37,908 nt of DNA from Synechococcus sp. SB0662_bin_14 (lineage in GTDB: Bacteria > Cyanobacteriota > Cyanobacteriia > PCC-6307 > Cyanobiaceae). Every line of letters begins with the position of its first letter. Within the stretch, counting starts at the first letter, position 1. Positions 2,317 to 11,830 of the stretch are shown piece by piece. The stretch lies in contig VXNS01000017.1 in assembly GCA_009840445.1 (NCBI GenBank), positions 1 through 37,908 of the forward strand, given 5' to 3'. A model generated the notes under the pieces. The model was not told where the DNA came from, did not search any database, and saw nothing but the letters and a program-made list of their open reading frames with translations. Both the position numbers and the translations under genes were made by a program.

Positions 2317-3777
2317 TCACAGACCCTGCACAAACGCCTCCGCCCAGGCCAGGGTGGTGCGCACCTGCTCCATGCTGGGGGCCTCGCAATAGAGGCGCAG
2401 CAGCGGTTCCGTTCCCGAGAAACGGAGCATGAGCCAGTGGCCCAGGCCCTTCCCCAGCCGCAGCTTGATCCCGTCCCGTTGGTTCACGTCCGTCACGGGT
2501 TCACCGGCAACGGTTTGGGGTGGCTGCTGCTCCAGCACCGCCAGCAGACGGTTGCGGGTGGCCAGATCGCCGAGGTGCAGATCCAGGCGATCGTAGTGGA
2601 GTTGCAGGCCGGAGCGCTGCTGCAGCGCTGCCAGGCGCTCACCGAGGGGCTGCTCCGCCGTCACCAGGGCCTCCAGCACCAGCAGCGCCGCCAGGAGGCC
2701 GTCCCGTTCCGGCATGTGGCATCCAAAGCCCACCCCACCGGATTCTTCTCCCCCCAGCAGCACCGCCTCCCGGCGCATGACGGCGGCAATGTGCTTGAAG
2801 CCAACGGGAGTCTCCACCACCCGCCGGCCCCGATCTTCCGCCACAACGGTCATTAGATCCGAGCCGCTGACGGTCTTCACCACCACACCGGGCCGGGTGG
2901 CGTCACGGCCCAGGTGGTCGATGAGCAGGGGAATCAACTGTTGGGTGCTGCAGAAGGCGCCCGTTTCGTCCACGGCGGCCAGGCGGTCCCCATCCCCGTC
3001 AAAGGCCAGGCCCACCACGGCCTTTTCAAGTATCCTGAGGGCCTTGATCCGACGGGTCAGGTCCGACAGATTGGGGGCCAGAGGCTCCGGCGCATGGCCG
3101 CCAAACAACGGATCCCGGTAACTGCGGATTTCCCCTGTTGAAGGCCCCAGCAGCCGGCGCAGTCCCCCTGCCGCCGCCCCGTGCATGGAATCCACCAGCA
3201 CCCGCAAATCCATGTCCTTCAGGCGCTGCGCCAGCATCCGGCAATCCACCAGTTGGGATAAGCCGGCCAAGTAGGGCGTCCAGGCATCAAAGCGGCTGAT
3301 GGGATCGCGGCCAGGGGGAACCACGGAACCGGCCCGCAAGCGGCGCTCTACCCGTTTTGTAAAGGCGGAGTCCACAGAGCCGCCAAAGGGACCCTTGATC
3401 TTGATGCCCAGCCATTCGGGGGGATTGTGGCTGGCGGTGACCACCAACGCCCCCAGGGCCTGCCGATGCCGTACGCACCAACTCATGGTGGGGGTGGGGG
3501 TGGGATCGGCGGCCAGCAGTGGCAGCAAGTTGCACCCCTGCACAGCGGCAGCGGCCAACTCCGCCAGTTCCGGGGCCAGGAAGCGGCGGTCAAAGCCAAT
3601 GAGCACCTCCCGGCTGTTGAGGCCTTCCGGGGCGGCAGCGGCCAACTCCTGGGCTGCGGCAGTGGCCACCTGCAGCACCGTTGCCGCCGTCACGTCCACA
3701 CCCAGCACGCCACGCCAGCCGTCGGTGCCAAAACGGATGGATCCGGTAGACTGCATCGGAGGGAGTAGGGACATCAC
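2317..3777 (-). CDS. Phosphoglucomutase/phosphomannomutase family protein
   Basis: An alpha-D-phosphohexomutase that moves phosphate between C1 and C6 of a hexose phosphate in the cytoplasm, probably for cell-envelope or storage sugars. The 486-residue product shows all four hallmark sites. These are the phosphoserine loop TASHNP (114-119, Ser116), the metal loop DGDGDR (260-265), the sugar-specificity loop GGEESGG (342-348) and the phosphate-binding loop RFSGTEPLLR (452-461). The N-terminal FGTDGWRG (17-23) is typical of the PGM/PMM-like branch and differs from GlmM. A start at the internal Met8 (MQSTGSIRFGTDG) is equally plausible. The gene starts only 7 bp after the MBL-fold gene, so they are probably cotranscribed. 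It is distinct from the true pgm at 29075. Exact substrate cannot be read from sequence. Confidence 0.93.
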   Translation of the reverse strand: MMSLLPPMQSTGSIRFGTDGWRGVLGVDVTAATVLQVATAAAQELAAAAPEGLNSREVLIGFDRRFLAPELAELAAAAVQGCNLLPLLAADPTPTPTMSWCVRHRQALGALVVTASHNPPEWLGIKIKGPFGGSVDSAFTKRVERRLRAGSVVPPGRDPISRFDAWTPYLAGLSQLVDCRMLAQRLKDMDLRVLVDSMHGAAAGGLRRLLGPSTGEIRSYRDPLFGGHAPEPLAPNLSDLTRRIKALRILEKAVVGLAFDGDGDRLAAVDETGAFCSTQQLIPLLIDHLGRDATRPGVVVKTVSGSDLMTVVAEDRGRRVVETPVGFKHIAAVMRREAVLLGGEESGGVGFGCHMPERDGLLAALLVLEALVTAEQPLGERLAALQQRSGLQLHYDRLDLHLGDLATRNRLLAVLEQQPPQTVAGEPVTDVNQRDGIKLRLGKGLGHWLMLRFSGTEPLLRLYCEAPSMEQVRTTLAWAEAFVQGL

Positions 3778-3784
3778 GGCAGCC

Positions 3785-4543
3785 TCAGGAAGGGATCAGT
3801 GGGTAGCAGCGGCCTGGTTCCGGATCCAGCAGTTGGGTCTGGGGGGAACAACTGTTGAGGAGGGCCGCGGCCATGGCCATGGTGCCGCGACTCCAGAGCA
3901 GCTTGGGCAACAACCCGGAGTCTTGCGTCTCTCCCCCAGCCGTGCTGGCCAGCACCCAGCGGGGCTGAAACCGCTCCAGCAACCGGGGCAACACGGTTTG
4001 CCCCCGCACAAAGGCGCCCACCAGGGGTAGGCCAAGATCCACCACGGGCGTGATCACCGCATCCAGCTTCCGGGGCGGCAGGGTCGGATCCAGAAAGCCG
4101 TGGGGCTCGGCGTAGAGACGACCATCAGGGTGCTGGAGCAGAAAACCGTTTTCCTGCCCCGGCACGGCTGCCCCTGCCGTGGCCGTGATGGTGAGGGGGC
4201 CGCCAGCGCCACTGGTGTGTTGATGGCTCTGGCCAGGGGCCAGGGCCGTGACCTGGGTAAAGCCCAACGTCCTGACCACTTGTGCTGCTGCGACCGATCC
4301 CACAACAGGAGTGGAGCGCTCCAGTTTCTTGAGGGTGGGGGGATGGGCGTGGTCCGGCAGGCCCTGGGTGAGCAGCACCAGATCAACAGCCGGTGGGATG
4401 GGCCAGTCTTGCAGGAAGCGGGACTCAAAAAACCAGGGACTGTTGCCAAAGGAAAGCGGCCCCGCCAACCAGGGATCCAGCAGCACGTTCAGATTCGAGA
4501 AACCCAACTGCCAGCCGTTGGCGCCAAAGTAGGTGGCCCGCAT
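3785..4543 (-). CDS. MBL-fold hydrolase-like protein with degenerate metal motif
   Basis: This 252-residue protein has the layout of UlaG/RomA-like metallo-beta-lactamase-fold proteins: an N-terminal strand pair MRATYFGANGWQL, then LLDPWL, then the active-site loop. In that loop the usual THxHxDH reads TQGLPDHAH (59-67). The first two histidines are replaced by Gln60 and Leu62, while Asp64 and His65 remain. From family knowledge, cyanobacterial and plant-plastid relatives also carry an altered loop, so this may be a stable subfamily and not decay. Metal binding and activity are therefore uncertain. It sits between the substrate-binding protein gene (39 bp upstream) and the phosphohexomutase (7 bp downstream) in one leftward cluster. 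The ATG at 4543 is the only convincing start. Confidence 0.8.
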   Translation of the reverse strand: MRATYFGANGWQLGFSNLNVLLDPWLAGPLSFGNSPWFFESRFLQDWPIPPAVDLVLLTQGLPDHAHPPTLKKLERSTPVVGSVAAAQVVRTLGFTQVTALAPGQSHQHTSGAGGPLTITATAGAAVPGQENGFLLQHPDGRLYAEPHGFLDPTLPPRKLDAVITPVVDLGLPLVGAFVRGQTVLPRLLERFQPRWVLASTAGGETQDSGLLPKLLWSRGTMAMAAALLNSCSPQTQLLDPEPGRCYPLIPS

Positions 4544-4582
4544 GTGATGGTCTTGGAATGCAATGCAGCCTAGAGACCGGCT

Positions 4583-5647
4583 TCAGTCGGTTGCGGGAAC
4601 GACGCCCATGGCGCGCTTCATAAACACCTGGGGATCAGTACGCCACTCGCTATAGCCAATGCGCCGGCGGTCCGTCAGCCAGTCCAGCTTCTCGCTGAGA
4701 CAAGCAGCCAAAACAGTGTTGTCACGGTCCAAGGCAAAACCTCCCAACTCCTTGGCAGAATCAAGGACACTGATGGCCAAGCGCCCGCCAGAGTCGTAGC
4801 TGGCGTCCCTGTTGCCGATTTCACCACGGGCAACCGCATCAAGGGCGCCGTCAGAGACCATGGCCAGCAACTGTCGCTCATCTGTCCTGTAGATAATCTG
4901 CGGCTTGTTATCTGATGGGTTGTATAACTTTGTGCGACCAGCGAGAGCCGGACTACTTTGGGATGCCGTGATCATCCAATCGTCACTGCCGTCTGCCACA
5001 ACCAGCCCGCGGGGGGTTTCCACGTGGACGCCTTTGGCCAGCCGACCGTTGGACCGGACCAATCCCGTGAGCGCCAGCAGGCGGTACTCGCCTGTGGTTC
5101 CCGCCAGGGCCCCAATCCGAACCGTGGCATCCAACCGGTCGTAGCTGGAGAACCGCTCCACCTCAGCAGCCCGCACCAGCAGGGATTGGCGGAAGGTGAT
5201 ATGGCCTGACGTGAAGGTGACCACGGTGTCCCCAGCAGCACTGCGGGTGCGGGAATCGAGAATCGTGATGCCGCCACCGACAAGATCGAATTCCGGCTCG
5301 GCAGCCCGTAGCCAAAGACCAGGCCAGCGTGCAATAGCCCGGCGCGAAAATTGCAGTCCTGCCCCATCCATGGCCTCCAGAGCATCCAGCAGGTCCGCTT
5401 CATAGCCCCGATGCTGATGAAATCCTGGTGAGCCCGGCGTGGGATCAGCGCTATAGCTCACCGGCCGAAAGTCGGCAAAGAAGCCCATATTCAGCACAGT
5501 GCCTGGAGGCGTGCAGGGTCGATGGTCTGCAAACACAGGCTGCCACCAGCCCGTGTTGATGATCCCTGCCAAGCCCAGGGCAAGTAATTCAGGCAGAGTA
5601 CGGTGTTGGAAGCGATGGGTAGCCTGCTGTAGCCGCGTGGGAGCCAT
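4583..5647 (-). CDS. Amino-acid-type ABC transporter substrate-binding protein
   Basis: A predicted exported solute-binding protein (SBP_bac_3-like, family 3), which would bind an amino acid or similar ligand outside the membrane and deliver it to a permease. The ATG at 5647 starts MAPTRLQQATHRFQHRT, followed by a hydrophobic stretch (LPELLALGLAGIINTGWW) and an Ala-rich end at PVFA, consistent with a signal peptide. Mature features include MGFFADFRPVSY, the acidic lobe GYEADLLDAL, FDLVGGGITILDSR and TFTSGHITFRQSLLVR, which follow the order seen in GlnH/HisJ-like proteins. No permease or ATPase genes are nearby, so it is an orphan component or a sensor-like protein. The frame also extends upstream to 5704, but that would run into CRISPR repeat 1, so 5647 is preferred. 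About 354 residues. Confidence 0.75.
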   Translation of the reverse strand: MAPTRLQQATHRFQHRTLPELLALGLAGIINTGWWQPVFADHRPCTPPGTVLNMGFFADFRPVSYSADPTPGSPGFHQHRGYEADLLDALEAMDGAGLQFSRRAIARWPGLWLRAAEPEFDLVGGGITILDSRTRSAAGDTVVTFTSGHITFRQSLLVRAAEVERFSSYDRLDATVRIGALAGTTGEYRLLALTGLVRSNGRLAKGVHVETPRGLVVADGSDDWMITASQSSPALAGRTKLYNPSDNKPQIIYRTDERQLLAMVSDGALDAVARGEIGNRDASYDSGGRLAISVLDSAKELGGFALDRDNTVLAACLSEKLDWLTDRRRIGYSEWRTDPQVFMKRAMGVVPATD

Positions 5648-5696
5648 GGGATTCCTGGAGCGCCAGATCATTGAAGCAAAGTAGAGGTAACGCCTG

Positions 5697-6161
5697 TGGT
5701 CCATCCCGCGGGTGTGGGGAACAGGGGCAACGCCCGTATCTGCATGACGCGTCTACTCGGTCCATCCCCGCGTGTGCGGGGAACAGGCTAGCACCGATTG
5801 ACTACGGTTCACCATGACCCGGTCCATCCCCGCGTGTGCGGGGAACAGCCAAACCCAGACGCCAATCTCCCCGGCCAGAAAACGGTCCATCCCCGCGTGT
5901 GCGGGGAACAGCCCTGGGCATGAACCGTGGCAGCCTCCGGCCTCGGTCCATCCCCGCGTGTGCGGGGAACAGTGTCATGCGTGACACAGGCGAGAGTTTG
6001 TCTGACGGTCCATCCCCGCGTATGCGGGGAACAGTCACGTAGTCTCTATCGGGAAGTTCGATATCAACCGGTCCATCCCCGCGTCTGCGGGGAGCAAGAG
6101 GTTGCGGTCAAAACAGCGACGGCAGTGCATCACGGCTCATCCCCGCGTGTGGGGGGAAACG
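5697..6161 (-). CRISPR. Type I-E CRISPR array, eight repeats, decayed at both ends
   Basis: Eight repeats of about 29 bp start at 5697, 5758, 5820, 5883, 5944, 6006, 6069 and 6133. They are separated by seven spacers of 33, 33, 34, 32, 33, 34 and 35 bp. The core CCCCGCGTGTGCGGGG forms a 6-bp stem. On the minus strand the repeat begins CTGTTCCCCGC and ends GGGGATGGACCG, the usual type I-E orientation, so the array reads leftward, the same way as cas3. Repeats 2-5 are identical and repeat 6 has one change (TGT to TAT). Repeat 1 lacks a base and is altered. Repeat 7 ends GGAGCAA and repeat 8 carries several changes. The cas3 stop is only about 15 bp from repeat 8, so there is no room for a leader on the expected side. 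Confidence 0.96.
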
Positions 6162-6176
6162 GACACCAATCTCACC

Positions 6177-8717
6177 TTAGCCAATGACCAGTCCCAATTC
6201 GCGATCCAGGCACACCTTCAACTCCCCATCCTGAAACACGCCGTCAGAGTCCAATAGCAGAGCATGGTGATGGGTCAGGCCAGGACAGGCAGACCATCCC
6301 GACGGCGACTGAGAGTCGCGGATCGCACGGATTAACCCTGGATGGCTGATGCGCAGCCAACGTTCCGCCAGTTCAGGGGCACGTTTAGCCAGGGACTCGC
6401 AATCCCTGGGAAACACAGGGACCACTGTCAAACTGGGCCGGCCAAGCCGTGTGCCGAACCGAAAGGCTCCGGACTCCGCCTTGTCATCGTCAATCTGTGA
6501 AGCTTCCTGATAGGTTCTCCAGTCACGGGGGGCTGGTAGCGCCATTTTGCGGGCTTCGTTGTTCATGTGATCCCGTTCACTTCTGTACTTCTGCAGGGCG
6601 TTAGCCAAAGCCTTGTTCAGGCCCTCAGAGGTAAGAGGTTCCCAGTTGCCATACACCTGCTGAACCGCCAAGTCGATGTCGTCCGGTAGATCCAGCAGCG
6701 GATGGTCCTTCAGCCAAGCGTGAGACCTGAGCACGAGCCAACGGTCATAAACGAAGCTGGTGAGGTCAGCGGGGGAGACCTCCTGACCCAGTCCCGCCAC
6801 CAACACAAGAGGTTCCTTGAAATTGTCAGGGCGCTGACGGTCATGGCGGTGGATGCGTCCAGCACGTTGCAACACCAAATCAACGGGTGCTGGATCCGTG
6901 ATGAGCACGTCCATGTCAATGTCGAGAGACTGCTCCGCCACCTGCGTGGCCACCAGCACATGTCCCGTTTGTGCTGTTCCGCCCGGACCAAACAACATCA
7001 ACACCTGCTTCTCGATATCGGTCCGTTGATCCATCGGGAACCGCGCATGGAATAGAGTGCGTTCAACTCCGGTGATTGAGCGGTAGATGTCCTGAGCCCT
7101 GGCAACTTTGTTCACCACAATCAGCACCCGAGCCCCGTCTTTGGCCATCGCAACCGCACGGGCGGTCACGGCATCCGGGTCAATCCCTTGGACCGACAAG
7201 CTTTGACGACGGTTAGCCCGGAAGGACAAGGATTTGATGAAGCCGGGGGCAGCCCAACTGATTCTGGGGTACTGACCGGACGACACAGGAACATCCTTGC
7301 CCGCCCAGGCTTGCAGAATTGCGTCCCGTCGTGTGTGTGGCAGAGTTGCAGACATCAGCACCACGCGACAGCCCAACTGCTGGAGCCAGTTCACAAGCCG
7401 CTCAATCAGTCCGCCGGTGTAGGCGTCGTAGGCATGAACTTCATCAAGAATCACAGTGCGGCCCGCTAGTCCGAATAAACGGACAAAGCTATGGCGGGCA
7501 TTGAGTATACCTACGAGTGCCTGGTCCACTGTGCCGATTCCCTGTGGGCAAAGAAGGCAGCGCTTTGAGCCACGGAACCACCACCCTGCCGTTACTCCGC
7601 TGTCATCAGTCCCCAGTCCCACTTCCTGCAAGCGAAGGTTTGCAGTGTCCGGGTTACTGCCGCTGTGTGCCAGGGCCAGCTTGACACTTCCACCAACAGC
7701 GCGTTTAAGAAATTGCCCCATCCTTCCCATCAATGCATTGCTGGTGGCCTGCGTAGGCATCGCCATATACATACCGCGCCGCCCAAATCCGCAACCGAAG
7801 CCCGCCTCTGTCTTGCCCTCCCCCATGGGCGCCTCGATGACTATCAAACCAGGCTCCTGCCCCAATTGGTCAAGTATCTCGGCCATGGTTTGTTGTAACG
7901 GACGGGGCTCCATGCCATCCAGAGCCAGTCTGATGGCATCACCACCGGAATCAACTGGCGGCAGTGCAGCAGCGGCAAGACCCACGTCGGAGAGTGCTTT
8001 GTCCGCGAGTTGCCGACTCTCGGCAAACCATTGAGCAGGATCAGGATCCTTTTCCCAACGTTCAAGGCGATCCCATCGGCACAGGGCCTCACTGGAGCCG
8101 ATCCAGTCGGACACGGTGGTAAGCCCCATCAACCACTGCAGGAATGCTGCTTGCTGAGCGCCCTTAGGCGGCAGAGTTGGGATAACGTTAGCACCAACTC
8201 CTTCCAATAACTGGCTAAATAGCTGCTTGTGGGCCTCATGCCATACTGCATCCAAATGCTCCGCTGAGCGGCCAGCGTCTTGACAAACGACCGAGTTGAT
8301 CAGGTGACCATGGTGCGCACCCACTGCTAAGGCAAAGAGCCGGGCATCACTGTTGGAAACTCCCCACTGGACCAATTGGTCTCTCAAAAGCGGGACGGTA
8401 CTGGCATCGTGACGGTCGAAGGCAGCAGGAGGAAAGGCAGGGCAACCTGGAACCCATTTCCTGCCCAGCTTCTTCTGAAAACCTGGGGTGGCTTTACCCA
8501 GATCGTGAAACCCCACCAACGCTGTCACCCATGAGGGCGAACAGGGCATTGGTATAGGGCAGGGAATTACCTTCTGGAGTACGCAAGCAACTGCGGACAC
8601 ATCCAGAAGGTGGGGCAGCAAGGGATAGCCATGACTCTGGCCCTCAGCCGGTGATTTGGCCCAGAGGCCCAGAGGATTAGCCATGGTGTAAAAGGCGAGG
8701 CTGATACGCATAAGCAT
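6177..8717 (-). CDS. cas3: CRISPR-associated helicase/nuclease Cas3
   Basis: Cas3 is the HD nuclease and 3'-5' ssDNA helicase recruited by Cascade to degrade targeted DNA in type I systems. The 846-residue product has an N-terminal HD domain: LPHLLD with His36, GFHDLGK with His71-Asp72, GAHHGH around 133-138 and SDWIGS around 203-208. A superfamily 2 helicase follows: Walker A APMGEGKT (296-303), DEVH (425-428), SAT (456-458), QVAEQSLDID (592-601) and QRAGRIHRH (617-625). The C-terminal accessory domain ends at ELGLVIG, a usual family ending. No stop or frameshift is visible, so the gene appears intact. Possible starts are ATG at 8717, 8711 or 8684. None of cas8e, cse2, cas7, cas5, cas6e, cas1 or cas2 lies in the window. 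The CRISPR array follows immediately in the same orientation. It is either part of a dispersed system or a surviving remnant. Confidence 0.95.
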   Translation of the reverse strand: MLMRISLAFYTMANPLGLWAKSPAEGQSHGYPLLPHLLDVSAVACVLQKVIPCPIPMPCSPSWVTALVGFHDLGKATPGFQKKLGRKWVPGCPAFPPAAFDRHDASTVPLLRDQLVQWGVSNSDARLFALAVGAHHGHLINSVVCQDAGRSAEHLDAVWHEAHKQLFSQLLEGVGANVIPTLPPKGAQQAAFLQWLMGLTTVSDWIGSSEALCRWDRLERWEKDPDPAQWFAESRQLADKALSDVGLAAAALPPVDSGGDAIRLALDGMEPRPLQQTMAEILDQLGQEPGLIVIEAPMGEGKTEAGFGCGFGRRGMYMAMPTQATSNALMGRMGQFLKRAVGGSVKLALAHSGSNPDTANLRLQEVGLGTDDSGVTAGWWFRGSKRCLLCPQGIGTVDQALVGILNARHSFVRLFGLAGRTVILDEVHAYDAYTGGLIERLVNWLQQLGCRVVLMSATLPHTRRDAILQAWAGKDVPVSSGQYPRISWAAPGFIKSLSFRANRRQSLSVQGIDPDAVTARAVAMAKDGARVLIVVNKVARAQDIYRSITGVERTLFHARFPMDQRTDIEKQVLMLFGPGGTAQTGHVLVATQVAEQSLDIDMDVLITDPAPVDLVLQRAGRIHRHDRQRPDNFKEPLVLVAGLGQEVSPADLTSFVYDRWLVLRSHAWLKDHPLLDLPDDIDLAVQQVYGNWEPLTSEGLNKALANALQKYRSERDHMNNEARKMALPAPRDWRTYQEASQIDDDKAESGAFRFGTRLGRPSLTVVPVFPRDCESLAKRAPELAERWLRISHPGLIRAIRDSQSPSGWSACPGLTHHHALLLDSDGVFQDGELKVCLDRELGLVIG

Positions 8718-8875
8718 TATCTCAGGCAGAGGTCAGCCGTCTGCACCTTGCCTGGCTAAGCCCAGAACTTCTGCTCACCCATCCATCGGCGATCTAGTTT
8801 GATCTCTCACGTTGCAAGCTGCCTTTCCACGCAGACCCACCAGATCTACATTGGCGCCAATTCAGCAGAAGAACC

Positions 8876-9085
8876 ATGCCAGACAACAGCAAGTGGACGC
8901 AAATGATCCAGCACTGGCGCAGCCTGCCGCTGGAGGAGCGTCGGAGCCGTCACCTGAAAGTAATCCCCCGTCATCCAGCCAACTCCATGGCCATGGAAGG
9001 TGAGCCGGTGGATGAGGTCTGGCTTCGGGCGCGGCTTGCCCCCAAGATTCGGAAACGGCTGATCCGCCTCACCGCCGGGTCCTGA
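8876..9085 (+). CDS. Small hypothetical protein
   Basis: A 69-residue frame from the ATG at 8876, preceded by a weak purine-rich AGAAGAA stretch. The peptide is charged and Trp-containing, with LPLEERRSRHLKVIPRHP followed by EGEPVDEVWLRARLAP, and has a basic C-terminus. It looks more protein-like than the overlapping frames, but I do not recognise a family. It is divergent from cas3 and separated from it by about 160 bp in which I see no other feature. Size and charge would suit a small antitoxin-like or DNA-binding protein, but this is only a guess. Confidence 0.45.
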   Translation: MPDNSKWTQMIQHWRSLPLEERRSRHLKVIPRHPANSMAMEGEPVDEVWLRARLAPKIRKRLIRLTAGS

Positions 9086-9183
9086 CCGCCATCCCAACCT
9101 GCCCCGAAACCAGACTGAGTCACTTGCGGGACGCCAACTCAGGAGAGCGAGGGAGCGCTAGACTAACCCCACAACCCCTGCCC

Positions 9184-9513
9184 ATGGCCTCCAGCCCCTC
9201 AGCCACAGCCAAGCCAGCAGATCACAAGTCCGCAGAGCAGGCGAGAGCCGTGCCGCGCCTTGGCGGCACGGTGCATGAGTGGCAGCAATGGTTGGCCCCG
9301 GGTGTGGTGGTGGCTGTCGTTCTGGCCATGGGCTCCCTCCAACGGGCTGATCTTCAGGAGTTCAGGGTTGAAGTTCAGTCTGACATTCGAGCGATCAACG
9401 ACCGCCTTGATCGGGTTGATACCCGCTTTGACCAGGTGAACGACCGTATTGATCAGGGTGACGCCCGCATCAACAGTCGTATTGATCAAATCTATCGGCT
9501 TCTGTTGCCCTGA
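9184..9513 (+). CDS. Small single-TM coiled-coil protein
   Basis: A 109-residue protein starting at ATG 9184 (an in-frame ATG at 9124 gives a longer, less plausible N-terminus). The first 45 residues are polar. One hydrophobic helix follows (WLAPGVVVAVVLAMGSL), then a C-terminal heptad-like coiled coil built from repeats of the pattern R-I/L-D-x-V/I-D (RLDRVDTRFDQVNDRIDQ and on). It would be an inner-membrane protein with an oligomerising tail. The layout resembles the small protein at 28331-28609. It ends 17 bp from the 3' end of the convergent parA-like gene. Function unknown. Confidence 0.6.
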   Translation: MASSPSATAKPADHKSAEQARAVPRLGGTVHEWQQWLAPGVVVAVVLAMGSLQRADLQEFRVEVQSDIRAINDRLDRVDTRFDQVNDRIDQGDARINSRIDQIYRLLLP

Positions 9514-9530
9514 GCCGATGGCTCCCATGG

Positions 9531-10526
9531 TTAACGAATGCCACAATGCTCAAGGAGCGCCTCTGCCAAGGCGGAGAAATCCTTGTGGCAGGCCCGGGCC
9601 GCCTTGTAATGGCCCCCAATGGCCCCATCGGCGGGGGTGAGCAGGAACATGGGCTTGCGGGCCGTCCGGGCCAGGGGCATCAAGCTGCGGTAGTGCTTGA
9701 GTTCCGCCAGGCAGTGGGGATCCTCCTTGGGTGAGCTTGGCGGTTGCTGTGCTGTTTCGCCCAACACCCATTTGCTGTACACCGATGGGACGCGGTCCAG
9801 CCAACGCTGATAGGCCTTCACCGGCCGATCCCGTCGCACGGCATGTTGCAGCACCACGTAACCCACTGGATCCATTCGGCCTTCAGGAAGTTCGGTTGTC
9901 TTGCCGAGAGATGCTGGCGCACGATTCAGACGTTCTGTCCACTCCTCACGCCAGCGGTGGAGCGTAGGCCCCAGGTTCTTCAGCCCTTGCACAGAATAGA
10001 GGTCCGGTCCCAGGGGGATCACCACGTGGCTGGCTGCGATCAGCGCCGCCCGGTTCAGCGCCCCCAGGCTTGGTCCCACGTCGATCAACACCACGTCCGC
10101 CTGGCGTTGCTCAGCGGCCTTGGCCAACATTCGCCAAAACACACTGATCACCCGGAATGCTCGTTGCTTTTGATCCAGACAGCTCGGCCATTGTGTAGAC
10201 AATTCATCTTCCACCGTGGACAGGCTCAGATCACCAACCACCAGGCCAATCCCTTTTGCAATCTCGTTGACATAGGGATCCACCACGTCGCCGGTTCCCT
10301 CCAGCAGGGGCGCCAGAGCAGCAACCACAGTGCGGGACGGCTCTGCATCCGTCCAAAACTCTTCCAACTTGTCGTCCTCCAGGAACATGCTGGTGAGATT
10401 CATTTGGGGATCCAGGTCCGCCGCCACAACGGATAGATCCATCTCAGCAAACATCCAGGCAAGATGATAGACAAGTGTGGTCTTCCCCACCCCACCTTTA
10501 TTGTTGAAAAATGCCAGAGTTTTCAT
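9531..10526 (-). CDS. ParA/Soj-family ATPase
   Basis: A deviant Walker-type ATPase of about 331 residues that, in this family, forms ATP-dependent dimers on DNA or membranes and positions cargo or segregates DNA. The ATG at 10526 gives MKTLAFFNNKGGVGKTT, with the signature Lys10 and P-loop Lys15. Walker A' is VVAADLDPQMNLT and Walker B is DVVLIDVGPSLG. A Pro-rich insertion and a C-terminal extension of about 100 residues go beyond a minimal Soj. The start codon overlaps the stop of the upstream ATP-binding protein gene by ATGA, so translation is probably coupled. No parB is adjacent; the ribbon-helix-helix gene at the head of the operon is the only candidate DNA-binding partner. Not part of the canonical chromosomal parAB as seen here. 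Confidence 0.9.
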   Translation of the reverse strand: MKTLAFFNNKGGVGKTTLVYHLAWMFAEMDLSVVAADLDPQMNLTSMFLEDDKLEEFWTDAEPSRTVVAALAPLLEGTGDVVDPYVNEIAKGIGLVVGDLSLSTVEDELSTQWPSCLDQKQRAFRVISVFWRMLAKAAEQRQADVVLIDVGPSLGALNRAALIAASHVVIPLGPDLYSVQGLKNLGPTLHRWREEWTERLNRAPASLGKTTELPEGRMDPVGYVVLQHAVRRDRPVKAYQRWLDRVPSVYSKWVLGETAQQPPSSPKEDPHCLAELKHYRSLMPLARTARKPMFLLTPADGAIGGHYKAARACHKDFSALAEALLEHCGIR

Positions 10527-11338
10527 GCTCCAGTCTCCCTGGTGGTTGCTGGTTTCAGGGTAGCGCAAATCACCTTGTCCTGGGCATCAAATTCCGGTGG
10601 GGGATTGCCGTTGCGTTCGCACTCCCTTCGGGCAATAGCGATGCCGGCGCCAAAGCGTTGAGCAAAGCCCACTTCCTTCAAGAAGCCCGCCAGGTTGGGG
10701 TTGCGATATCCTGTGAAGCCAGGTTGACCGAAGCTTTCCCGCGTCACCATGCCGACGGGTCCGCCAGGGCTGATGATCTCCATGCGATCCGAATACCAGG
10801 TGACGCGCACGGGCGTATGGTCGTGCTCGTAGGTGCGGTGCATGACGGCGTTACGAAACAATTGCTGAATGGCCGCCTGGGGGTAGAGTTGCGTGCGACG
10901 CTCCGTTGCCCGGCTACGAAACTCCACCATCGTGCGATTGTGGGAGTTTAGTTTGTCTTCCACACCACGAATCACATCCACCATACGCCCCGTGAAACCT
11001 GCTTCGTCCAGAACATCGTCCGCCAGGGTGGGGCCGTCCAGCTTCAGGAATTGCACGTAGGCGCCGGGGAGAAAGTCCGTGGGCTGGTTGGCGAGGGCCA
11101 GCACCCCCAGGTGGGTGGGCGTGGGGTCATCGGGGCTGAGGATCATCCGGGTGCTGGCCAGTTGCTCCTCCAGCGTGCGCCCATTGTCGTCCAATACCTC
11201 GGCTGCCACAGCGGCAGGTAAGTAATTCTCCTTGTACCAGGACAAGTCCAGATCGGCTACGGTGGCACCATGGCAAGGTTGAGCATCAAACGGCTGATCC
11301 CGGAAGCGACGCTTTTCATTGAGAACCGGAGAACACAC
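10523..11338 (-). CDS. ATP-binding (HATPase_c_4-type) protein lacking its AlbA_2/Schlafen N-terminus
   Basis: About 271 residues matching, by memory of the family, the C-terminal two thirds of AlbA_2-domain putative transcriptional regulators. Recognisable pieces are [14 protein letters not shown] near the start, EYLPAAV-like ENYLPAAVAAEVL, DDPTPTHLGVLAL, then the ATP-lid-like LFRNAVMHRTYE and RMEIISPGGPVGMV, and RFGAGIAIARRECERNGNPPPEF. Family members normally carry about 120 further residues upstream (the AlbA_2 nucleic-acid-binding part). Here the in-frame codon before the GTG at 11338 is a TGA stop, so that part is absent. The start overlaps the end of the upstream TM-protein frame by 23 bp, and the stop overlaps the parA start by 4 bp. 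It could be a functional shortened form or a truncated remnant. Confidence 0.75.
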   Translation of the reverse strand: MCSPVLNEKRRFRDQPFDAQPCHGATVADLDLSWYKENYLPAAVAAEVLDDNGRTLEEQLASTRMILSPDDPTPTHLGVLALANQPTDFLPGAYVQFLKLDGPTLADDVLDEAGFTGRMVDVIRGVEDKLNSHNRTMVEFRSRATERRTQLYPQAAIQQLFRNAVMHRTYEHDHTPVRVTWYSDRMEIISPGGPVGMVTRESFGQPGFTGYRNPNLAGFLKEVGFAQRFGAGIAIARRECERNGNPPPEFDAQDKVICATLKPATTRETGA

Positions 11339-11579
11339 TCATGCCACCGGTGCGCAGAATGGGATACTCGTTCGTGACGGCAACAAGAATTCCTCCCCCA
11401 GCCAGGGAGACCAGGAGACACGTCCCTGTCCAGAACTCGGCCCAGAACCGGTTGTGGCCATGGGACTGGTCACGGTCTATACGAGCTTCTTGCAGTATTG
11501 CTCTCCAGTCTCCCGCTTGCGAGGAGACAGGAATTTTTGTGTCCAGGTCAAGCGGCGAATTCTCTGCCTTTGGTGTCAT
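11316..11579 (-). CDS. Small single-TM protein in the RHH-ParA operon
   Basis: An 87-residue frame from ATG 11579. A TTG at 11600 would overlap the RHH stop as TTGA and add seven residues. The first 45 residues are polar. One transmembrane segment follows ([18 protein letters not shown]) and a short tail. Family not recognised. Its position between two overlapping genes on the same strand supports expression. Alternatively it could be sequence that replaced the missing N-terminal part of the downstream ATP-binding protein gene. Confidence 0.5.
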
Positions 11580-11596
11580 GGTTCCGGTGCTGGATG

Positions 11597-11830
11597 TCAA
11601 AGACCGGTGACCTCAGTCTTGCTGTGGGCATCTTCCAGGAAGACCCTGAGAGGGGATTCAGGATCTCTGCCCTCTTGATCCAGTTGCCGGTTTTTTACCG
11701 CGATGTAGAGGCGCATGGCGCGGTGGAACACTTCAGCACGGTGCTTGCCAAGGCGCTCTGCCAGTTTGCCCATGTCCTCGTCCAGTTTCGGGTCCATGCG
11801 GACCTGGTACCACTGCTCTTTTGTAGCCAT
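11597..11830 (-). CDS. Ribbon-helix-helix DNA-binding protein
   Basis: A 77-residue protein from ATG 11830 ([19 protein letters not shown]). The pattern fits an Arc/CopG-type RHH domain. A beta strand (QWYQVRMD) precedes helix 1 ([15 protein letters not shown]) and helix 2 ([20 protein letters not shown]). Such proteins bind DNA as dimers, often as autorepressors, antitoxins or plasmid centromere-binding proteins. It is the first gene of a leftward run with 4-bp to 23-bp overlaps leading to the ATP-binding protein and ParA. An inverted repeat lies 10 bp upstream of the start and could be its operator. An in-frame start at 11899 is possible but would cover that repeat. Confidence 0.75.

Follow-up and report, generated by a model that had tools for sequence, protein, structure and literature searches.

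The window analysed here, 37,908 nucleotides of Synechococcus sp. SB0662_bin_14 DNA, is one complete contig (C2) from a draft genome of 2.16 Mb. With strains SP3 and SH4 of Candidatus Synechococcus spongiarum among the congeners recovered, the organism is very probably a picocyanobacterial sponge symbiont. A preliminary description of this DNA had reported four overlapping leftward genes at 9531–11830, and an ORF check of the window confirmed their coordinates and their location on the minus strand. From right to left, they encode an RHH (CopG-like) DNA-binding protein (11597–11830; 77 aa, ATG start; Pfam RHH_1 sub-threshold at E = 0.049), a small membrane protein that has lost its C-terminus (11316–11600; 94 aa from a TTG, or 87 aa from an ATG at 11579), a 271-aa product that starts with GTG and matches HATPase_c_4 (10523–11338; PF13749, 2.8e-17), and an intact ParA of 331 aa with an ATG start (9531–10526; Pfam AAA_31, 6.7e-29). 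The membrane protein has one strong hydrophobic stretch and no Pfam match. The parA product is a ParA-family ATPase with the deviant Walker A motif NNKGGVGKTT, and no second copy of its gene was found in the genome at E ≤ 0.001.

The locus is followed by a 129-aa ORF on the plus strand (9124–9513), predicted to have one transmembrane segment and a coiled coil, and by a type I-E-like cas3 on the minus strand (6177–8717), a neighbouring defence gene. Strain SH4 shows the same order as the window (cas3, small ORF, parA, effector gene), with homologous sequence at the position of the 129-aa ORF. Cascade-like genes are retained beside cas3 in SH4; neither a homologue of the SH4 Cse1-like protein nor Cas1 was found in the draft genome, and the cas3 of the window appears orphaned. 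Small one-TM proteins whose coiled-coil tails are repetitive turn up repeatedly in the genus (window 9124–9513; L037, 7950–8177; L033, 2425–3015), where they often sit between defence or variable genes.

The overlaps between the four genes had been read as a sign of coupled translation. This reading holds for the "HATPase" ORF and parA, whose stop and start codons share an ATGA (10523–10526, minus strand); the coupling is real, and relatives have the same or a similar arrangement. The overlap of the RHH and membrane genes depends on the TTG start of the latter, and the 23-bp overlap of the membrane and "HATPase" ORFs has another origin. Open frames of close homologues of the "HATPase" ORF span 412–450 aa compared to 271 aa in the window, and the effector of the sister genome G063 (locus L033) has 409 aa with SLFN_AlbA_2 (4.4e-15) and HATPase_c_4 (1.2e-17) domains by Pfam. 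The window effector retains 266 C-terminal residues, about two thirds of the protein, and lacks some 143 N-terminal residues including the whole Schlafen domain; SLFN_AlbA_2 was not found in it by Pfam and is present in the orthologues at L033, L095, and L114. Roughly the first 5 codons of the 271-aa ORF are membrane-gene sequence. DNA alignment revealed that the window tracks L033 into the 3′ part of the membrane gene, that 589 bp are then absent (L033, 11843–12431), and that the match resumes within the effector gene; the same gap removes the final residues of the window membrane protein. The "HATPase" ORF is therefore truncated at its N-terminus and the membrane ORF at its C-terminus. Because a deletion of about 590 bp joined the two genes, fusing the 3′ end of one to the middle of the other (11316–11330, minus strand, with edges uncertain by a few bases), their overlap is a scar and not native coupling, unless the junction reflects what may be an assembly error. 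The preliminary description had rightly called the "HATPase" ORF a fragment, here recognised as the C-terminal remnant of a SLFN_AlbA_2 + HATPase_c_4 protein of about 409 aa, and had envisaged that both middle genes might be decayed, as they are in the window.

Decay is also evident in the sister genomes. In strain SP3, the effector gene carries an internal stop and a further truncation, ParA is absent at that locus, and the membrane ORF is complete with 110 aa; the membrane and Schlafen genes are separated by extra DNA that carries a phospholipid methyltransferase-like gene (L037, 9154–9615). The SH4 effector has an internal deletion next to an intact ParA, and the G063 membrane gene carries a stop codon. 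Lineage-specific changes in the window effector fragment amount to 16 synonymous and 9 nonsynonymous substitutions, counts that are uninformative for dating the decay. Since the fragment has no nonsynonymous excess, the deletion may be of recent origin. Pairwise dN/dS was 0.13–0.19 for ParA and 0.12 for the effector fragment against G063. These ratios, and the lack of a relaxed pattern on the window branch, would fit a residual module in which the truncated HATPase protein and ParA still cooperate even though the Schlafen domain is gone, serving for instance as an antidote or a decoy. We regard such cooperation as improbable given that no plausible start signal was seen for the fragment, that ParA was lost from the SP3 locus, and that a recent deletion would itself leave this pattern. 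The window module is most likely non-functional, with the Schlafen domain of its effector deleted and ParA left behind. The same genome encodes a second, distant HATPase homologue (L039, G000:C62, 8622–9368; 29% identity, within a 687-aa open frame), with no close relative of the window ParA alongside.

The other two genes have a distribution of their own. In a sample of 300 genomes of the family, this genus alone had close homologues of the RHH and membrane proteins. Weaker RHH homologues occur in other picocyanobacterial genera (L048–L053), and immediately after each comes a small protein that has one strong hydrophobic stretch and, towards its C-terminus, a stretch rich in Gly/Ala (the partner at L053 is short), and a paralogous RHH and membrane pair is present in the window's own genome (L064, G000:C41). 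At nearly all loci inspected the RHH gene was accompanied by a membrane gene. The two genes touch or overlap at L052 (1453–1943), L064 (about 1250–1743), and L048–L051. Judged by its neighbourhoods, the RHH and membrane combination is a conserved picocyanobacterial pair independent of ParA.

A profile scan of loci placed the RHH and membrane genes beside a Schlafen-ParA locus only in the window, L033, SP3 (L037/L084), and L046, whose contig stops within the Schlafen gene; neither gene was found at the other Schlafen-ParA loci scanned. The order RHH, membrane, Schlafen-HATPase adjoining pyrH is kept in three sister genomes (L033, L037, and L046). Because the combination is confined to these genomes and the window, the juxtaposition near pyrH is, as far as gene order tells, ancestral within the sponge-symbiont Synechococcus clade only. 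The conserved order would be compatible with a bona fide operon of that clade in which the RHH protein, a membrane anchor, the Schlafen-HATPase protein, and ParA cooperate. This is very unlikely, since the arrangement is limited to one genus, breakage differs between the window, SP3, and G063, SH4 has the effector and parA without the RHH or membrane gene, and either pair occurs alone elsewhere. A four-gene module across bacteria was ruled out on the same distribution. All four ORFs of the set that the preliminary description had grouped together do exist, but they belong to two unrelated pairs and not to one system, and the conserved co-occurrence of the four families that it had proposed to look for was seen within a single symbiont clade.

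We searched the genome collection with the full effector and recovered 21 loci, from Cyanobacteria, Planctomycetes, Proteobacteria, and Hydrogenedentota. In 18 of the 20 testable loci, the parA gene lies immediately after the effector gene, and the two usually overlap by a few bases (the sequence of L094 ends inside the effector gene, and this locus was left out); both exceptions, L084 (SP3) and L093, have broken effector genes. From the ParA side, a search across the cyanobacterial phylum showed a full or near-full effector upstream of 16 of 18 close homologues, a fragment upstream of 1, and none upstream of the other. No third gene was common to many Schlafen-ParA loci. Outside the symbiont clade, gene order thus indicates that Schlafen-HATPase and ParA are a strict two-gene pair, found in at least 4 phyla.

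Defence genes accompany some copies of the pair. Type III restriction and modification genes are located nearby at L077, L080, and L090, and in the last of these a type III-like restriction gene, the effector, parA, and a methylase gene all run in one direction (3215–10531). PD-Lambda-4 is near the pair at L079, DUF499 and HNH at L078, and cas3 in the window and SH4, while a D12 methylase gene overlaps the effector gene on the viral contig L095. At many Schlafen-ParA loci (e.g., L075, L081, L083, L087, and L089) no recognised defence gene was present among the neighbours examined within 6 kb. The linkage, found at some loci and not all, is suggestive of a role in defence. PADLOC v2 returned no full-length system match, only partial matches to Argonaute-associated and PDC-M28B models, which rules out a known PADLOC system; NCBIfam and PHROGs gave only generic ParA or helicase labels. 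The idea of an unrecognised defence system put forward in the preliminary description survives in a reduced form, limited to the strictly paired Schlafen-HATPase and ParA genes, several copies of which lie by defence genes, with the RHH and membrane genes excluded.

To characterise the two proteins of this pair, we compared AF2 models with known structures. The model of an effector orthologue (pLDDT 83.5, pTM 0.62) was most similar to Corynebacterium diphtheriae DIP2311 (3lmm; E = 7e-19), followed by the SAMD9 tRNase, the N-domains of SLFN11, SLFN14, SLFN5, and SLFN13, and the CA domains of histidine kinases; all are domain-level matches with modest TM-scores. For ParA (pLDDT 92, pTM 0.91), the nearest structure was DIP2308 (3pg5), ahead of Soj and ParF, and a profile search also placed DIP2308 nearest to the window protein. 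The tags DIP2311 and DIP2308 are three apart in one genome, and, as far as tag numbers alone can tell, this would lend independent support to the pairing of effector and ParA. Within the Schlafen domain, E18 and E23 are invariant in 28 intact homologues and the third acidic position usually has D or N; these residues may correspond to the SLFN13 triad and its active-site spacing. Nuclease activity of the domain is uncertain because of the D or N at the third position.

ParA proteins related to that of the window are found with other partners. Its plasmid and viral homologues share 25–32% identity with it. In Vibrio, Photobacterium, Neorhizobium, Salmonella, Spirosoma, the picocyanobacterium at L071, and viral contigs, ParA is followed by a SIR2_2 gene, with the domain confirmed by Pfam in 8 loci (L071, L096, L098, L103, L105, L106, L145, and L146). 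A HEPN_RiboL-PSP gene takes this place in Burkholderia glumae and in other cyanobacterial families (Pfam-confirmed in 4 loci: L109, L132, L133, and L138), and most of the loci L134–L141 have an ORF that matches the HEPN gene in size and place alone. The distant ParA genes overlap their SIR2_2 or HEPN successors by short stretches. Overlapping ParA and SIR2_2 genes were seen on plasmids of Vibrio, Salmonella, Spirosoma, Photobacterium, and Neorhizobium at L103 (5001–6856), L105 (4004–5922), L106 (4001–5889), L145, and L146, and the plasmid SIR2-ParA combination is a possible defence pair. In the damaged locus L111 (4079–5769), a RelA/SpoT-domain gene (PF04607, 4.9e-16) is the immediate successor of a ParA-like ORF that has its Walker A in a different frame. 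On a Hyphomicrobiales plasmid (L153, 4992–5699), ParA overlaps a following 236-aa ORF without a Pfam match, possibly another effector type. Orphan relatives of ParA are carried by P22-like phages, close to the c2 repressor gene as in Salmonella phage ST160 (L142, 3995–5068), by the inovirus Pf1 (L143, 4073–5026), and by Pantoea and E. coli plasmids. Some ParAs of the clade have an altered Walker A (L035, L125, and L128), a point against the reading favoured below.

In a maximum-likelihood tree of the ParAs, the SIR2-paired proteins form one clade (100/99), those with HEPN partners group with the phage orphans, and those with Schlafen partners make up a separate clade that includes two ParAs with decayed or absent partners. 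Since the pairings follow the ParA tree, effector type tracks ParA ancestry, as expected for co-evolving partners. ParB-linked ParAs fall far from the Schlafen-paired clade, a placement given by only two partition proteins, used as the outgroup and on long branches.

The tree bears on the similarity to type Ib partition that the preliminary description had seen in the RHH and ParA genes. The ParA fold, the deviant Walker A, a nearby RHH gene in the same direction, and the frequency of ParA-family proteins on plasmids are what a partition or stabilisation cassette of plasmid origin, with the RHH protein as ParB, would bring together. The RHH gene is, however, two genes away from parA and pairs with the membrane gene, meeting this ParA only inside the symbiont clade; parA is instead coupled to the Schlafen gene, no ParB-type partner was seen beside Schlafen-ParA pairs, and the ParB-neighboured ParAs lie outside the clade. 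We consider partition to be highly improbable.

Another explanation is a regulator pair without toxic activity, with the Schlafen/AlbA_2-HATPase protein regulating transcription by binding DNA and ParA as its ATPase partner. It draws on the labels of AlbA_2/HATPase_c_4 proteins, which are often called DNA-binding or helicase-related, and on the ParA-like proteins that adjoin the repressor region of P22-like phages, the Pf1 one being called a regulatory protein. The invariance of E18 and E23 in 28 proteins argues against it, and the occurrence of this ParA family beside SIR2 and HEPN enzymes fits control of effectors better than transcription, which makes a purely regulatory pair unlikely, if less so than partition. 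A broader proposal, which we advance only tentatively and hold to be somewhat less than probable, is that members of this distinct ParA family are hub regulators in abortive-infection modules whose effectors can be exchanged (a Schlafen-HATPase, a SIR2 NADase, a HEPN RNase, or perhaps a RelA/SpoT-type enzyme), ParA acting as sensor or antitoxin and not as a DNA-partition motor, and that the prophage orphans of P22-like phages and Pf1 serve counter-defence or immunity.

For the locus itself we favour, with a probability of roughly 0.6, two unrelated gene pairs lying side by side, of which the Schlafen-ParA unit would be an effector-controlling toxin-antitoxin or abortive-infection module that is most likely dead or dying here. 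One unit would comprise the RHH regulator and the small membrane protein, and the other the Schlafen-HATPase effector gene followed by the coupled parA. For the second unit, domain content, strict pairing, translational overlap, E18/E23 invariance, and a ParA family shared with SIR2, HEPN, and Schlafen effectors are observed in the sequences, from which we infer all activities, the direction of control, and the defence purpose. The N-terminal Schlafen/AlbA_2 domain would be an RNase whose target is probably tRNA or another RNA; a helical region lies in the middle of the protein, and the histidine-kinase-like ATPase domain at the C-terminus is a putative nucleotide-gated switch. ParA, presumably an ATP-dependent dimer, would hold the effector off in uninfected cells, and interference by an invader with ParA, with the nucleotide of ParA, or with its binding to DNA would release or activate the effector, with growth arrest of the cell as the outcome, following abortive-infection or toxin-antitoxin logic. 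The window locus is probably a leftover antiviral or toxin-antitoxin module and no plasmid partition operon.

Partition is the routine annotation of ParA genes, and their presence is taken to signal a plasmid. Should one whole ParA family control toxic effectors instead, many such "partition" assignments, whether chromosomal, prophage, or plasmid, would be wrong, and the Schlafen-ParA, SIR2-ParA, and HEPN-ParA pairs would be two-gene candidates testable as one mechanism. Some of the striking four-gene overlap in the window is the scar that a deletion left in a symbiont locus undergoing decay, and the part worth pursuing is the wider ParA family with its exchanged effectors.

No description of Schlafen-ParA or SIR2-ParA pairs was found in the open literature, a search whose coverage excludes most subscription journals and preprints, and the main text of the DefensePredictor paper mentions none of ParA, Schlafen, and SIR2. 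No paper found there brought ParA, SIR2, HEPN, and Schlafen together, and the HEPN study of 2013 was the one of direct relevance. The Schlafen-ParA pair is apparently widespread and undescribed, and its novelty is provisional. The closest precedent is the dyad of HEPN (MAE_18760 family) and ParA/Soj predicted in 2013 as a toxin-antitoxin system with ParA as the antitoxin (PMC3710099). Both have two overlapping genes, an ATPase of the same wider ParA family, and a predicted RNase partner; in contrast to the dyad, the partner here is a Schlafen/AlbA_2 + HATPase protein encoded 5′ rather than 3′ of parA, and the ParAs are just about 25% identical. By these comparisons, the Schlafen-ParA pair would be at most a variant of the HEPN-ParA dyad. 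Fusions of a Schlafen-family RNase with a minimal histidine kinase (and a wHTH) are reported to be widespread auxiliary effectors of BREX loci (PMC12839542), and the intact orthologue of the window effector has the same domain combination, but it is strictly paired with ParA and has no tie to BREX, and the window copy lacks the Schlafen domain. DIP2311 and DIP2308 of C. diphtheriae, solved structures without an assigned function, have the folds closest to those of the effector and ParA, respectively, although identity is about 20–24%. Type Ib partition (ParA with an RHH ParB) resembles the locus in the ParA fold and the neighbouring RHH gene and differs from it in that the RHH gene is uncoupled from ParA, the ParA belongs to another clade, and the two have no conserved association. 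NetFlax domain D29, described as the ATPase of AriA, GajA, and PtuA, represents hub AAA-ATPase antitoxins of the PARIS, Septu, and AbiL type (PMC10440598); its ATPase type differs from ParA, which rules it out as the same thing, and what the two have in common is the principle of a single ATPase family that neutralises different toxins.
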